In this document: positions 16,758 through 58,799 of the stretch, in pieces
How positions within the stretch are numbered: the first letter of the stretch is position 1
How the letters are laid out: the number at the start of each line of letters is the position of its first letter
Assembly: GCA_024742575.1 (NCBI GenBank)
Contig: JANSYF010000001.1
Coordinates: forward strand, 1-64,000
Direction: 5' to 3'
DNA from: Paracoccaceae bacterium
Lineage (GTDB): Bacteria > Pseudomonadota > Alphaproteobacteria > Rhodobacterales > Rhodobacteraceae
DNA length: 64,000 nucleotides
Made by a program: the position numbers and the translations under genes
Notes under the pieces: model-generated
Told to the model about the DNA's origin: nothing
The model's database searches: none
What the model saw: the letters and a program-made list of their open reading frames with translations, nothing else

Positions 16758-16800
16758 ATTTTCGGTCAACCGAAAATCGCACATCCGCCGACGGATGTGC
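16758..16800. repeat. Paired hairpins after rsmE
   Basis: ATTTTCGGT-CA-ACCGAAAAT then GCACATCCG-CCGA-CGGATGTGC. Confidence 0.8.
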
Positions 16801-29971: not shown

Positions 29972-32416
29972 ATGCCCATACCCACACATGCCCGCGCCGT
30001 CATCATCGGTGGTGGTGTCATCGGTTGTTCCGTTGCCTACCACTTGACCAAGCTGGGCTGGACCGATGTGGTGCTGCTGGAACGTAAGCAGCTGACGTCA
30101 GGCACGACATGGCATGCGGCAGGATTGATCGGGCAATTGCGGGCGTCATCCAACATGACGAAGCTGGCAAAATACACAGCCGATCTTTATTCGACCATCG
30201 AAGAGGAAACCGGCGTTGCCACCGGGTTCCGCAAAGTAGGGTCAATCTCGGTTGCATTGACCACTGAACGTCACGAAGAATTGCGCCGTACCGCAGGGAT
30301 GGCACGGGCCTTTGGCGTGCCTGTCGAAGAAATCGACACAGCCGAGATCAAACGGAAATACGCACATCTGAACACCAGCGATGTCGTGGGTGGTGTCTAT
30401 TTGCCCAGCGATGGCCAAGGCGATCCGGCCAACATCGCGCTGGCGATGGCCAAGGGCGCGCGGCAGCGCGGAGCGCAAATTTTCGAGCGGACAAAGGCCA
30501 CCAAAGTCACACGTGACTGGCAGCGGATCACGTCTGTCGACTGGGCGTCAGAAGATGGCACCAGCGGCACCATAACCTGTGATCACGTCGTCAATTGCGC
30601 AGGGATGTGGGGCCGTGAGGTTGGTCAGATGCTGGGCGTGAACGTGCCACTTCAGGCGTGCGAGCATTTTTACATTGTTTCCGAACCCATCCCTGGCCTT
30701 GAGGCTTTGCCGGTACTGCGCGTGCCGGATGAATGCGCCTATTACAAAGAAGACGCCGGCAAGATGATGCTGGGCGCATTCGAGCCCAAGTCAAAGCCCT
30801 GGGGAATGAGCGGTATTCCCGAAAGTTTTGAATTCGATCAGCTGCCCGAGGATTTCGACCATTTCGAGCCGATCTTGGAGGCGGCCGTGAACCGGATGCC
30901 GATGCTGGCCGAAGCGGGAATTCACACGTTTTTCAACGGGCCGGAAAGCTTTACCCCCGACAATGCCTATTACCTTGGCCAAGCCCGCGAGATGGATAAT
31001 GTCTGGGTCGCCGCCGGATTTAACTCAATCGGCATCCAGTCGGCGGGCGGAGCGGGTATGGCGCTGGCGCAATGGATGGAAGACGGGGCCAAGCCGTTCG
31101 ATCTGGGCGATGTGGACATTGCCCGCGAACAACCTTTCCAGCGCAACCGCCGCTATCTGAAGGAGCGGGTGACAGAGACTTTGGGTCTTCTTTACGCCGA
31201 CCATTATCCGTACCGGCAAAAGGCCACCGCCCGCGGTGTGCGCCGCACGCCATTCCATCAGCAGCTTTTGGAGCGCGGCGCGGTGATGGGGGAAATCGCA
31301 GGTTGGGAGCGTGCGAACTGGTACGCGACCGAAGGTCAGACACCCGAATACGCCTATAGTTGGAAGCGGCAAAATTTCTTTGAAAACGTCGCGCATGAAC
31401 ACAGAGCGATCCGCGAAAATGTCGGCATGTATGACATGTCCTCCTTTGGTAAACTGCGGGTGGAGGGACCGGACTCTGAGGCGTTTTTGAACTTTGTCTG
31501 TGGCGCGGATATGTCGGTACCGGTGGGCAAGATCGTCTACACCCAGTTTCTGAACATGCGCGGCGGAATAGAGGCAGATGTCACAGTAACCCGCCTGTCT
31601 GAAACGTGCTTCCTTGTCGTAACACCGGCTGCCACGCGCGCCGCAGATCAGACTTGGCTGCAACGCCATGTGGGCGACCACCGAGTGGTCATCACTGATG
31701 TGACGGCAGGCGAAGCTGTGCTTGCCGTGATGGGACCAAATGCGCGCAAGGTTATCCAGTCTGTGTCACCCAATGAATTCTCGAACGAGGCTAACCCTTT
31801 TGGGACTGCGCAAGAAATCGAGATCGGCCTTGGCACGGCGCGGGTGCACAGGGTGTCCTATGTCGGAGAGCTGGGCTGGGAGATCTACATCTCTGCCGAT
31901 CAGGCCGGGCATGTGTTCGAGACGCTTTGGGAGACAGGACAGGATCATGGCCTGACCCTGTGTGGAATGCATGCTATGGACACTTGCCGGATCGAAAAGG
32001 CGTTCCGCCATTTTGGCCATGATATCACCTGCGAGGATCATGTTCTGGAGGCCGGGTTGGGCTTTGCCGTGAAAACTGCAAAACCTGATTTCATCGGACG
32101 CGATGCGGTTTTGCAAAAGCGCGAGACCGGTTTGCAAACCCGGATGGTGCAGTTCCGCCTGACCGACCCCGAGCCGCTGCTCTATCACCACGAACCGATC
32201 CTGCGGGATGGGGAGATTGTTGGCTACCTGAGTTCCGGTGCATATGGACACCATCTGGGCGGTGCCATCGGCATGGGATACGTGCCGTGTGTGGGTGAAA
32301 CTGCGGAGAAGGTGTTGGCGTCGACCTATGAGATCGATGTCGCAGGCGTGCGGGTCAAAGCAGAAGCTTCGCTCAGACCGATGTATGATCCGACGTCAGC
32401 GCGGGTGCGAGGGTAG
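29972..32416 (+). CDS. FAD-dependent oxidoreductase-GcvT fusion (second paralogue)
   Basis: RAVIIGGGVIGCSVAYH, SGTTWHAAGL; C-terminal GcvT; 814 aa. Confidence 0.88.
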   Translation: MPIPTHARAVIIGGGVIGCSVAYHLTKLGWTDVVLLERKQLTSGTTWHAAGLIGQLRASSNMTKLAKYTADLYSTIEEETGVATGFRKVGSISVALTTERHEELRRTAGMARAFGVPVEEIDTAEIKRKYAHLNTSDVVGGVYLPSDGQGDPANIALAMAKGARQRGAQIFERTKATKVTRDWQRITSVDWASEDGTSGTITCDHVVNCAGMWGREVGQMLGVNVPLQACEHFYIVSEPIPGLEALPVLRVPDECAYYKEDAGKMMLGAFEPKSKPWGMSGIPESFEFDQLPEDFDHFEPILEAAVNRMPMLAEAGIHTFFNGPESFTPDNAYYLGQAREMDNVWVAAGFNSIGIQSAGGAGMALAQWMEDGAKPFDLGDVDIAREQPFQRNRRYLKERVTETLGLLYADHYPYRQKATARGVRRTPFHQQLLERGAVMGEIAGWERANWYATEGQTPEYAYSWKRQNFFENVAHEHRAIRENVGMYDMSSFGKLRVEGPDSEAFLNFVCGADMSVPVGKIVYTQFLNMRGGIEADVTVTRLSETCFLVVTPAATRAADQTWLQRHVGDHRVVITDVTAGEAVLAVMGPNARKVIQSVSPNEFSNEANPFGTAQEIEIGLGTARVHRVSYVGELGWEIYISADQAGHVFETLWETGQDHGLTLCGMHAMDTCRIEKAFRHFGHDITCEDHVLEAGLGFAVKTAKPDFIGRDAVLQKRETGLQTRMVQFRLTDPEPLLYHHEPILRDGEIVGYLSSGAYGHHLGGAIGMGYVPCVGETAEKVLASTYEIDVAGVRVKAEASLRPMYDPTSARVRG

Positions 32417-32417
32417 C

Positions 32418-32471
32418 CAGAAACTTCGTACGAAGTTTCTGCAGTGGCAGGATTTTCATACGAAAATCCTG
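32418..32471. repeat. Paired palindromes, TTCGTACGAA type
   Basis: CAGAAACTTCGTACGAAGTTTCTG and CAGGATTTTC-ATAC-GAAAATCCTG. Confidence 0.85.
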
Positions 32472-32504: not shown

Positions 32505-33155
32505 GTGCAGATGATCGATTATCGCCCGCCCGACATACCGCTGGACATCCTGCACGAGGATCACGAAATTCTTGTCGTGAATAAACCTGAAGGACTTTTG
32601 TCGGTGCCGGGGAAGGGACCGGAGCTGGCCGACTGCCTGATCGCGAGGTTGGAAGCGGCATATCCACAAGTTCTGCTGGTACATCGGCTTGATCGGGACA
32701 CGTCGGGCGTGATGGTTTTTGGCCTCACGCCGCATGCCCAGCGCCATCTGGGACTGCAGTTCGAAAAACGGCAAACGAAGAAAACTTATCTTGCCCGCGT
32801 TGCAGGACGGTTGGAGCCGAAGACCGGGACAGTGGACCTGCCCTTGATCGTAGACTGGCCAAACCGCCCCTTACAGAAGGTTGATCGTGAGACCGGAAAA
32901 CCCGCAGTGACGGACTGGCGGGTGATGAAATCGTCAGACGCGGAAAGCCGAGTGAAGCTGTTTCCGCAGACAGGGCGCAGCCATCAGCTGCGAGTGCATA
33001 TGCTGGCGTTAGGTCATCCGATTTTGGGTGATCCACTGTATGCGTCCGAGACTGCAGATCAGCACCCGCGTATGATGCTACATGCTGAGGAATTGCGGCT
33101 GCGGCACCCGGATGGCGGTGAAGGAGTGAAGTTTCGGGTGGCGGCCCCCTTCTGA
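32505..33155 (+). CDS. RluA family pseudouridine synthase
   Basis: VHRLDRDTSGVMVFGLT...GRSHQLRVHMLALGHPILGDPLYA. Confidence 0.9.
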   Translation: MQMIDYRPPDIPLDILHEDHEILVVNKPEGLLSVPGKGPELADCLIARLEAAYPQVLLVHRLDRDTSGVMVFGLTPHAQRHLGLQFEKRQTKKTYLARVAGRLEPKTGTVDLPLIVDWPNRPLQKVDRETGKPAVTDWRVMKSSDAESRVKLFPQTGRSHQLRVHMLALGHPILGDPLYASETADQHPRMMLHAEELRLRHPDGGEGVKFRVAAPF

Positions 33156-54993: not shown

Positions 54994-55010
54994 GGTTTAC
55001 TCCGTGGTCC

Positions 55011-55075
55011 TGATCTTCTCTGGTTCAAAAATACTTCGGGGGAGTCGCGCGTCGCGCGACGGGGGCAGAGCCCCC
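55011..55075. repeat. Modular repeat copy B
   Basis: TGATCTTCTCTGGTTCAAAAATACTTCGGGGG + GTCGCGCG..CGCGCGAC + GGGGGCAGAGCCCCC. Confidence 0.8.
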
Positions 55076-55078
55076 GAT

Positions 55079-56329
55079 CTAGCTGACGATCCCCGCCGTC
55101 TCGACGACCGCATGGAACAAAACATCCGTCCCCGCCGTCGCCCATTCCTTGGAAATCTCTTCAGCTTCATTGTGCGAGAGACCGTCAACGCAGGGACACA
55201 TCACCATCGCCGTCGGGGCCACATCGTTGATCCAGCAGGCGTCATGCCCCGCACCAGAGACAATATCCATGTGACTGTAGCCCAAACGTTCGGCGGCATC
55301 CCGGATCGCGCTGACGCAATTCTCATCAAACGCAGGAGGATCAAACTGTCCGACGATGTGGCAGTCAAACTCTACACCGATGTCCCGGCACAGCTTTGGC
55401 GCGCGTTCCATGAACTCCGCGACCATGGCGTTCAGCTTGTCGAGAAGATGCGTCCGCATATCGACGGTGAAGACCACCTTGCCCGGAATTATGTTTCGGC
55501 TGTTGGGGTAGACGTCGATATGTCCGATGGCGCCGACCGCATTGGGTTGGTTCTTCATCGCGATCTCGTGCACCAGCTCTGTCACCAGCGCCAGCCCGCG
55601 CCCTGCATTTTTGCGCATATGCATGGGGGTTGATCCGGTATGACTTTCCTTTCCGGTCACAGTGCATTCGATCCAGCGCAGACCCTGCCCATGAGTGACA
55701 ACGCCAATGTCTTTTCCCTCAGCTTCGAGGATCGGACCCTGTTCGATATGCAGTTCGAAGAAGGCGTGCATTTTGCGATCACCGACCTTTTCCGTGCCCT
55801 TCCAACCGATGCGCTCCAACTCGTCACCAAATTTCTTGCCCTGCGCATCCTCCCGATCAAACGCCCAGTCCAGCGTGTGTTTTCCCGCAAACACACCGGA
55901 CGCCAACATAGCCGGCGCAAAGCGGGTGCCTTCTTCGTTTGTCCAGTTGGTGACAATGATCGGATGTTTGGTCTTGATCCCCAGATCATTGAGAGAGCGC
56001 AGAATCTCAAGCCCTCCAAGAACACCCAGGACGCCATCGTATTTTCCGCCCGTGGGCTGCGTATCGAGGTGCGAACCCACATAAACCGGCAGCGCGTTCG
56101 GGTCTGTGCCCTCGCGCCGTGCAAACATGTTACCAATCTCATCAAGACCCATGGTACAGCCCGCATCTGTGCACCATTTCTGGAACAGCGCACGACCTTC
56201 GGCATCTTCATCAGTCAGGGTCTGGCGGTTGTTGCCACCGGCCACACCCGGCCCAATCTTGGCCATTTCCATGAGACTGTCCCAAAGACGGTCGCCATTG
56301 ATCCGCAGGTTTTCACCGGGTGCTGCCAT
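55079..56329 (-). CDS. Zn-dependent hydrolase (N-carbamoyl amino acid amidohydrolase / beta-ureidopropionase-like)
   Basis: YVGSHLDTQPTGGKYDGVLGVLGGLEILRSL...NWTNEEGTRFAPAMLASGVFAG. Confidence 0.9.
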   Translation of the reverse strand: MAAPGENLRINGDRLWDSLMEMAKIGPGVAGGNNRQTLTDEDAEGRALFQKWCTDAGCTMGLDEIGNMFARREGTDPNALPVYVGSHLDTQPTGGKYDGVLGVLGGLEILRSLNDLGIKTKHPIIVTNWTNEEGTRFAPAMLASGVFAGKHTLDWAFDREDAQGKKFGDELERIGWKGTEKVGDRKMHAFFELHIEQGPILEAEGKDIGVVTHGQGLRWIECTVTGKESHTGSTPMHMRKNAGRGLALVTELVHEIAMKNQPNAVGAIGHIDVYPNSRNIIPGKVVFTVDMRTHLLDKLNAMVAEFMERAPKLCRDIGVEFDCHIVGQFDPPAFDENCVSAIRDAAERLGYSHMDIVSGAGHDACWINDVAPTAMVMCPCVDGLSHNEAEEISKEWATAGTDVLFHAVVETAGIVS

Positions 56330-57131: not shown

Positions 57132-57175
57132 CGGTGTTTATCTCGGATTAACCAATGCTTCTGCACTATAGCGAC

Positions 57176-57418
57176 ATGACACAGCATCTGGTTTTTTCCG
57201 ATTCCCCGAGATTGAACGCCCCATGGCGCGATCAGTTGTTCAATACACGCGCCGCCAAGCACGGTGGTATCATTCGGCGAAACAAACACAGCATTAACCG
57301 CGAAATCGGTGTGTCTTTGCTTGTTGCTGAGGGGCGCGCACGCGGCTTCCGCCTCTACGAGGTTGGCGATGACTACGTAATCGTTTGTCACCGCCGCACC
57401 ATTCGACAGCTTTGCTAA
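57176..57418 (+). CDS. Conserved-looking small hypothetical protein
   Basis: 80 aa ORF MTQHLVFSDSPRLNAPWRDQLFNTRAAKHGG... Confidence 0.55.
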   Translation: MTQHLVFSDSPRLNAPWRDQLFNTRAAKHGGIIRRNKHSINREIGVSLLVAEGRARGFRLYEVGDDYVIVCHRRTIRQLC

Positions 57419-57419
57419 A

Positions 57420-57477
57420 GTTGCAGAAAATTCGTACGAATTTTCTGCAACGCAAGATTATTCGTACGAATAATCTT
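57420..57477. repeat. Paired perfect palindromes, TTCGTACGAA type
   Basis: GTTGCAGAAAATTCGTACGAATTTTCTGCAAC (32 nt) and AAGATTATTCGTACGAATAATCTT (24 nt). Confidence 0.9.
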
Positions 57478-58783
57478 ACTCAGCCGCCTGCGCCACTGCA
57501 GGGTTGTTCGGGTGGGTCGTCCAATCCCCATGCTCTGCTTCAACCGGACGGCCTGTCCGCTCATCAACGGCACCAGCCACTAGTTCTTCCATCGTGATGC
57601 AGGCCTCCACCGGACACACATTCACACACAGATTACAGGCCACACATTCGTCATCTTTGACCGTGAACACACGGTCCTCCGACATGGCAATCGCTTGATG
57701 CGAAGTATCCTCGCAGGCCGCGAAACAACGACCGCAGGAAATACACATATCCTGATTGATCCGCGCCTTGGTCACGTAATTCAGGTTCAGATTCTGCCAG
57801 TCACTGATATTCGGAACCGCCCGCCCGATCAGATCAGACGTCGATGCCAGTCCCTTTTCATCAAGATATTGCGACAGCCCTGAAACCATCTCTTGAACAA
57901 TTTTGAAGCCATAGGTCATTGCAGCCGTACAGACCTGCACATTACCCGCGCCCAGCGCCATGAACTCGGCCGCATCCTTCCATGTGGTAACGCCACCAAT
58001 GCCCGAAATCGGCAAACCACGCATCTCGGGAGACCGCGCAATCTCAGCCACCATGTTCAGTGCGATCGGTTTGACCGCAGGCCCACAATAGCCGCCATGT
58101 GCGCCCTTGCCGTCAATCGTCGGCTCTGGCGCGAACAGGTCAAGATCGACCGATGTAATGGAATTGATGGTGTTGATCAGACTCACCGCATCGGCACCAC
58201 CAGCATGCGCTGCCATAGCAGGTTTGCGAATGTCGGTGATATTCGGCGTCAGCTTCACGATACAGGGCATGCGCGTGTTCTGTTTCACCCAACGCGTGAC
58301 CATTTCGATATACTCTGGCACCTGACCGACGGCCGACCCCATCCCTCGCTCGGACATGCCGTGCGGGCAACCGAAGTTCAGTTCGACCCCATCCGCGCCA
58401 GTCTCTTCGACCAGCGGCAGAATCGCCTTCCAAGCCTCTTCAACACAAGGCACCATCAGCGACACGACCATCGCGCGGTCGGGATAGTCCCGCTTAACAG
58501 ACTTGATCTCACGCAGGTTCGCTTCCAAAGGCCGATCGGTGATCAGTTCAATGTTGTTAAGTCCCAAGAGCCGCCGATCCGCACCCCAGATCGCGCCATA
58601 GCGGGGCCCGTTCACGTTCACGACGGGTGGCCCAGCCTCGCCCAGCGTCTTCCAGACGACGCCGCCCCAGCCTGCCTCAAAAGCGCGGCGAACGTTGTAT
58701 TCCTTGTCCGTAGGTGGCGCCGAGGCAAGCCAGAACGGGTTCGGGCTTTTGATGCCCACGAAATCGGTTGTCAGGTCAGCCAT
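57476..58783 (-). CDS. preA: NAD-dependent dihydropyrimidine dehydrogenase subunit PreA
   Basis: Class-2 DHOD-like domain + C-terminal 2x[4Fe-4S] (CISCGRCFAAC, CVACNLCVNVCPVEAC). Confidence 0.92.
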   Translation of the reverse strand: MADLTTDFVGIKSPNPFWLASAPPTDKEYNVRRAFEAGWGGVVWKTLGEAGPPVVNVNGPRYGAIWGADRRLLGLNNIELITDRPLEANLREIKSVKRDYPDRAMVVSLMVPCVEEAWKAILPLVEETGADGVELNFGCPHGMSERGMGSAVGQVPEYIEMVTRWVKQNTRMPCIVKLTPNITDIRKPAMAAHAGGADAVSLINTINSITSVDLDLFAPEPTIDGKGAHGGYCGPAVKPIALNMVAEIARSPEMRGLPISGIGGVTTWKDAAEFMALGAGNVQVCTAAMTYGFKIVQEMVSGLSQYLDEKGLASTSDLIGRAVPNISDWQNLNLNYVTKARINQDMCISCGRCFAACEDTSHQAIAMSEDRVFTVKDDECVACNLCVNVCPVEACITMEELVAGAVDERTGRPVEAEHGDWTTHPNNPAVAQAAE

Positions 58784-58799
58784 TCTCAATCCTCCCGGA

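Follow-up and report, generated by a model that had tools for sequence, protein, structure and literature searches.

Several described systems place hairpins at the 3′ ends of bacterial genes. The REP/PU/BIME elements are short extragenic palindromes lying at gene 3′ ends or between cistrons, often as inverted pairs, and have been linked to mRNA stability and to ribosome stalling near the stop codon, which they can overlap (PMC12306157, PMC3733652). Within the puf operon of Rhodobacter capsulatus (pufA/pufL), a hairpin at the end of a cistron stabilises the upstream segment of the mRNA (PMC10253847). The U- and X-shaped (GeSTer) terminators consist of two tandem hairpins just after stop codons, working on both strands at convergent genes, with no poly-U (PMC8355165).

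Within the window (the whole stretch of 64,000 nucleotides that was analysed), two adjacent palindromes, P1 and P2, were found between the convergent stop codons of an 87-aa ORF and of preA (Table 1). The first-pass annotation had described them as perfect palindromes of 32 and 24 nt placed back to back, with a common 10-nt core and differing, fully paired outer stems, the first starting 1 nt after a stop codon; coordinates, symmetry, core and stems were all confirmed, as was the position behind the TAA. Two nucleotides separate P1 from P2, and the stem of P2 is unlike that of P1 outside the shared core. It had also been stated that P2 covers the preA stop codon, which is slightly too strong: the end of P2 does overlap this codon (57476–57478, minus strand), by two of its three bases. 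The identity of PreA was upheld by a profile match. The 87-aa ORF had no Pfam match, and its 3′ end is kept at the same place in two related species (G007 and G014). P1 is the longest perfect even palindrome of the window and P2 the second longest, tied with the palindrome at 32418; by simple arithmetic, 64 kb should contain about 1.5e-5 perfect palindromes of 32 nt. The core, TTCGTACGAA, has three copies in the window where 0.07 would be expected, a count reached by no shuffle. The pair folds at −28.9 kcal/mol on the plus strand (z −7.5) and −33.5 kcal/mol on the minus strand (z −9.2), and on each strand the minimum-energy fold contains both hairpins. An Rfam scan of the window returned only a tRNA, the palindrome pair matching no curated RNA family.

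Table 1. Palindromes of the family, neighbouring genes and pairs with asymmetric loops (positions are those of the window)
Feature	Position	Strand	Remarks
87-aa ORF	57155..57418	+	stop TAA 57416-57418, 1 nt before P1
P1, GTTGCAGAAAATTCGTACGAATTTTCTGCAAC	57420..57451	.	32 nt, perfect 16+16; 14-bp stem, loop GTAC
P2, AAGATTATTCGTACGAATAATCTT	57454..57477	.	24 nt, perfect 12+12; 10-bp stem, loop GTAC
preA (dihydropyrimidine dehydrogenase subunit PreA)	57476..58789	-	NCBIfam NF006183, 722 bits
Second family member, P1, CAGAAACTTCGTACGAAGTTTCTG	32418..32441	.	just behind stop codon of gene 29972-32416
Second family member, P2, CAGGATTTTCATACGAAAATCCTG	32448..32471	.	core TTCATACGAA, loop ATAC in place of GTAC
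GTCC...GGAC pairs			loci L242, L257, L289-L292; genomes G178, G040, G210, G145

The sites at 16758, 18791 and 32418 had been grouped with this pair in the first-pass annotation. The site at 32418 is a true member of the family, followed by the start codon of an RluA family gene at 32505. The other two were removed from it: 16758 is a tandem hairpin with a different core, and 18791 consists of two ordinary hairpins, one of them GC-rich. The tandem at 16758–16800 (ATTTTCGGTCAACCGAAAAT and GCACATCCGCCGACGGATGTGC) lies 3 nt after a stop codon, its core is unrelated, and by a strict scan it is the sole other tandem of two strong hairpins in the window. It should also be noted that adjacent GC-rich hairpins (GGGGGCTCTGCCCCC and GTCGCGCGACGCGCGAC, 55000–55080) lie directly behind a minus-strand stop codon at 55079, with no U-tract.

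The palindrome pair at the preA end belongs to an element that recurs in the Rhodobacteraceae. This element comprises two hairpins with a TTC(N4)GAA top, usually TTCGTACGAA, whose centres are 25–33 nt apart and which lie just behind stop codons. Nine copies of TTCGTACGAA are present in the 3.49 Mb of this genome (G000, genus Marivita). With a one-unit covariance model, ten strong units were detected here, forming five pairs with none single, while G016 had sixteen strong units in eight pairs (one unit of the eighth scoring weakly) and Marivita G015 about 20 units, all single. The proposed pairing therefore holds for every strong unit of this genome (10/10) and of G016 (16/16) but not for G015; other genera mix singles and pairs, and pairing is not universal. 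Strong pairs, defined by a pair-model E below 1e-7, were found in nine of the 17 Marivita genomes (G000, G001, G003, G004, G005, G007, G009, G014 and G016), with weaker matches to the pair model in most of the others; in G011 no element was detected by the unit model or the pair model.

A search of 84,980 genomes for two cores 14–26 nt apart gave, among the matches listed, mainly Rhodobacteraceae or Rhodobacterales, including Roseicyclus, Marivita, Roseovarius, Salipiger, Gemmobacter, Paracoccus and further lineages. In these listed matches both units were nearly always perfect palindromes of 20–24 nt, and in the listed matches from other phyla they were not such perfect palindromes. The claim of a recurring paired gene-end element was borne out by the genome and pangenome searches, with pairs recurring across the genome, the genus and its relatives. 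Centre spacing varies by lineage, being 26 nt in one lineage, 28–29 nt in Roseicyclus, 29–31 nt in Marivita and 32 nt in Gemmobacter. Presence is patchy: of 180 genera sampled within the family, 9 had strong pairs (E ≤ 1e-6, model trained on Marivita). Repeats of TTCGTACGAA of another kind were seen in rumen and gut Bacteroidales (L103, L106, L108, L115, L131, L147, L155 and L174); these lie mostly inside AAACGAAAACGAAAA-like stretches and are not hairpin pairs. When the stem alone was searched (GAATTTTC....GAAAATTC), the matches were again at gene ends, about half of them paired, and carried many loop sequences across genera, GTAC being the commonest; the conserved entity is therefore the TTC(N4)GAA-capped hairpin and not the 10-mer itself. 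Outside the family, of some 236 gene-end gaps of at least 40 nt, just two held two adjacent hairpins of at least seven perfect pairs. This rules out a general tandem-hairpin habit of the clade and makes tandem pairing a property of the palindrome family.

The enrichment at gene ends that had been proposed is strong. Together with the pairing counts, it means that the conditions named in the first-pass annotation as refuting its claim mostly turned out in its support. For 107 pairs listed from relatives, gene context was assigned with a gene finder that had learned its codon usage from the window, each orthologous copy counting separately: 35 fell in convergent, 62 in co-directional and 4 in divergent contexts, and 6 were undetermined, while at the same loci divergent gaps make up 27% of the intergenic bases and convergent gaps 15%. 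Palindromes lie a median of 3 nt from the stop codon. At co-directional pairs the median distance to the next start codon is 31 nt, and 60% have it within 40 nt; such copies sit inside probable operons, which counts against complete termination and rules out a plain terminator at these copies. A role as transcription-factor operator was rejected, since the sites avoid divergent promoters and their outer stems covary. That no U-tract accompanies the element, as the first-pass annotation held, was verified for the 62 co-directional elements: at least four T occur in the next 8 nt in a single case (1/62), and the T fraction in these 8 nt is 0.125 against a background of 0.194. Its stems are AT-rich (e.g., AAGATTATTC and GAATTTTC), and together with the U-tract count this led to the rejection of a canonical intrinsic terminator.

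The same gene end can carry different versions. At the preA end, four Marivita species carry the pair; in ten more, one palindrome stands alone between AT-rich flanks, CAGAATTTTATGG...CCATAAAATTCTG or similar; in G013 (L215) the whole flanked element forms one perfect palindrome of 64 nt (CAGAATTTTATGGGATGCCATGAGAATCTTCG and its reverse complement). In G011 the same convergent genes meet end to end without any palindrome. The exchange of one form for another at a single site points to a function linked to the gene end in question. The flanked single palindrome is a second architecture of the family, found in 7 convergent, 12 co-directional and 1 divergent contexts. The roughly 20 singles of Marivita G015 (L055–L074) have inverted AT-rich motifs on both sides (CAGAATTTACTGG / CCAGTAAATTCTG), and this flanking sequence is conserved. 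The element is dispensable, given that G011 is without it and that 9 of 180 genera have strong pairs by the Marivita-trained model.

To examine selection, orthologous gene ends of Marivita species were compared. Stem and core diverged by 4.1%, the loop by 12.8%, the spacer by 31.8% and the flanks by 19–29%. In 15 aligned pairs, the cells with two-sided changes numbered 48, compared with 13.4 ± 2.8 after shuffling, the covariation score was 0.477 against at most 0.113 when the alignment was slid, and 14 of the 20 base pairs showed two-sided changes with one-sided-only variation in none. One orthologous gene end (L085) showed a compensatory change of two base pairs, from AGAGTC..GACTCT to AGTTTC..GAAACT. 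Of the 107 pairs, 8 had stems identical at the inner four positions, where 22.8 would be expected (0 of 2000 permutations); after de-duplication and restriction to a spacing of at most 31, the count was 1 in 52 with 6.2 expected (P = 0.008). When one example was worked through, two identical stems were predicted to pair into a single long hairpin (−38 to −42 kcal/mol, compared with −24), and differing stems favoured two hairpins. From the stem divergence, the covariation and the within-pair stem differences we infer that selection maintains the element in the form of two distinct hairpins. An exception to the differing-stem rule was seen in Roseicyclus sp. McBI.24 (L111), where three consecutive units, spaced by 33 nt, have nearly identical stems.

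Imperfect stem positions on the transcribed strand comprised 15 G-T and 14 A-C, which shows no G-U preference and thus no asymmetry that would prove a function as RNA. In co-directional copies, perfection extends to the untranscribed strand. Where loops are asymmetric, the order was GTCC...GGAC in 6/6 and the reversed or same orientation was never seen (397 genomes); relative to transcription, loop orientation followed no consistent strand. An extra-stable DNA tetraloop of the class d(cGNABg), which GTAC fits, was set aside as an explanation of the loop, because any single change of GTAC fits the class on one strand and loop counts thus do not discriminate. It is rather improbable that the element is a kissing double-hairpin device, in which stems must differ and loops must be complementary so that the loops pair. 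GTAC is self-complementary, and GTCC...GGAC and TGAC...GTCA occur elsewhere, yet the loops are non-complementary at 32418 (GTAC with ATAC) and in several other pairs. If true, this would amount to a knot at the stop codon that can be read from either strand, a bacterial mRNA 3′-end or terminator structure of a kind not yet described.

It is suspected, with a probability of roughly 0.55, that the element acts at the RNA level as a bidirectional mRNA 3′-end hairpin pair that would be stabilising, processing and partly terminating, a reading drawn from the sequence. The hairpins would form in the transcript and block 3′-to-5′ exonucleases, fixing and protecting the 3′ end of the upstream mRNA. 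This protected end could stem from termination further downstream, from partial termination at the pair or from an endonucleolytic cut between cistrons. P1, about 3 nt from the stop codon, may be covered by the terminating ribosome while P2 would stay folded; at convergent genes one pair would serve both transcripts, and differing stems would give two hairpins rather than one long one. The probability is set at this level because there is no G-U preference and the palindromes are perfect on both strands, neither of which an RNA element read in a single direction would call for. Both features could be accounted for by convergent copies, by antisense transcription or by template-switch correction.

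The stable folds on both strands, and the 35 convergent pairs at which both-strand termination would make sense, are also what would be expected of a true bidirectional intrinsic terminator without a U-tract (the ‘U-shaped’ or ‘X-shaped’ tandem hairpins), with polymerase stopping and releasing at the pair. Such U-less termination has been claimed for tandem hairpins at most 15 nt apart near stop codons in several genomes (PMC8355165). This reading is nevertheless considered unlikely, in view of the low T content behind the element, its AT-rich stems, the position of P1 inside the footprint of the terminating ribosome, and the 60% of co-directional elements whose next start within 40 nt leaves no promoter room. 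Perfection on both strands whatever the gene orientation, with no G-U tolerance, would in turn suit a mutational origin, in which template switching during replication corrects imperfect palindromes and an old neutral hairpin stays perfect; this predicts the observed lack of one-sided stem changes and of G-U preference. It is nonetheless very unlikely, as neutral elements are not expected to be confined to gene ends, and neutrality fits neither a stem divergence of 4% beside 32% in a short spacer nor the avoidance of identical stems within pairs, to which loss by slippage could contribute.

The same both-strand perfection without G-U tolerance also speaks for an element working as DNA (a REP-like repeat, a protein-binding or a cruciform site) with a role in chromosome organisation, topology or mobilisation, kept out of genes and promoters and hence left at gene ends. 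The patchy presence by lineage, ranging from 5 to some 20 copies in those Marivita genomes where they were counted, with none in G011, and the fixed inverted polarity of the GTCC...GGAC loops (6/6), like that of inverted REP doublets, point in the same direction, and REPs share the gene-end position and the ability to overlap a stop codon (PMC12306157, PMC3733652). Such a DNA-level role is regarded as doubtful. The stems differ among copies with compensation, unlike those of mobile repeats or operator sites; every loop position varies while the stems do not; and the same gene ends are occupied across species. The Y1 (REP-associated) transposase PF01797 is absent from this genome (87% complete), G015, G007, G003 and the copy-rich G189, and was rejected as mobiliser for this genome; it is present in G016 and G014.

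The element looks like a conserved signal marking or protecting mRNA ends. To our knowledge, little has been established on how most alpha-proteobacterial genes form mRNA ends in the absence of U-tract terminators. The element is compact, easily recognised, conserved and present in culturable marine bacteria, and the natural variants at one gene end (pair, flanked single and empty site) make 3′-end formation without a U-tract directly testable, with the differing-stem rule as a clear design constraint for any mechanism. No description of the palindrome-pair family was found in the literature searched; judged by titles and opening parts of abstracts, the papers with TTCGTACGAA do not deal with it, in agreement with the first-pass suggestion of an undescribed element.

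Compared with known systems, the element shares with the REP/BIME elements an extragenic position at gene ends or between cistrons and not at promoters (35/62/4). It differs in consisting of perfect palindromes whose stems vary among copies with compensation and differ within a pair, and in copy number, with five strong pairs in G000, eight in G016 and about 20 singles in G015, where REPs usually exceed 100. No REP tag (GTAG/CGTC) was seen by eye at the hairpin foot in the aligned units, and neither Rhodobacter, Paracoccus nor Roseobacter relatives appear in the two REP papers (PMC12306157, PMC3733652). The canonical (L-shaped) intrinsic terminator likewise has a hairpin at gene ends, whereas the element is without a U-tract and its stem is AT-rich rather than GC-rich. 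Like the U- and X-shaped terminators, it places two close hairpins downstream of a stop codon; those classes are purely structural, whereas the element has a conserved core, a centre spacing of 25–33 nt and the differing-stem rule, and often lies directly upstream of a co-directional start codon. The puf hairpin comes from the same bacterial order and fits in position (60% of co-directional copies lie at most 40 nt from the next start), the likeness being one of position and likely action, while puf is a single locus and not a repeated family. The element may thus be called REP/BIME-like or puf-like in its working, and it is a member of neither.
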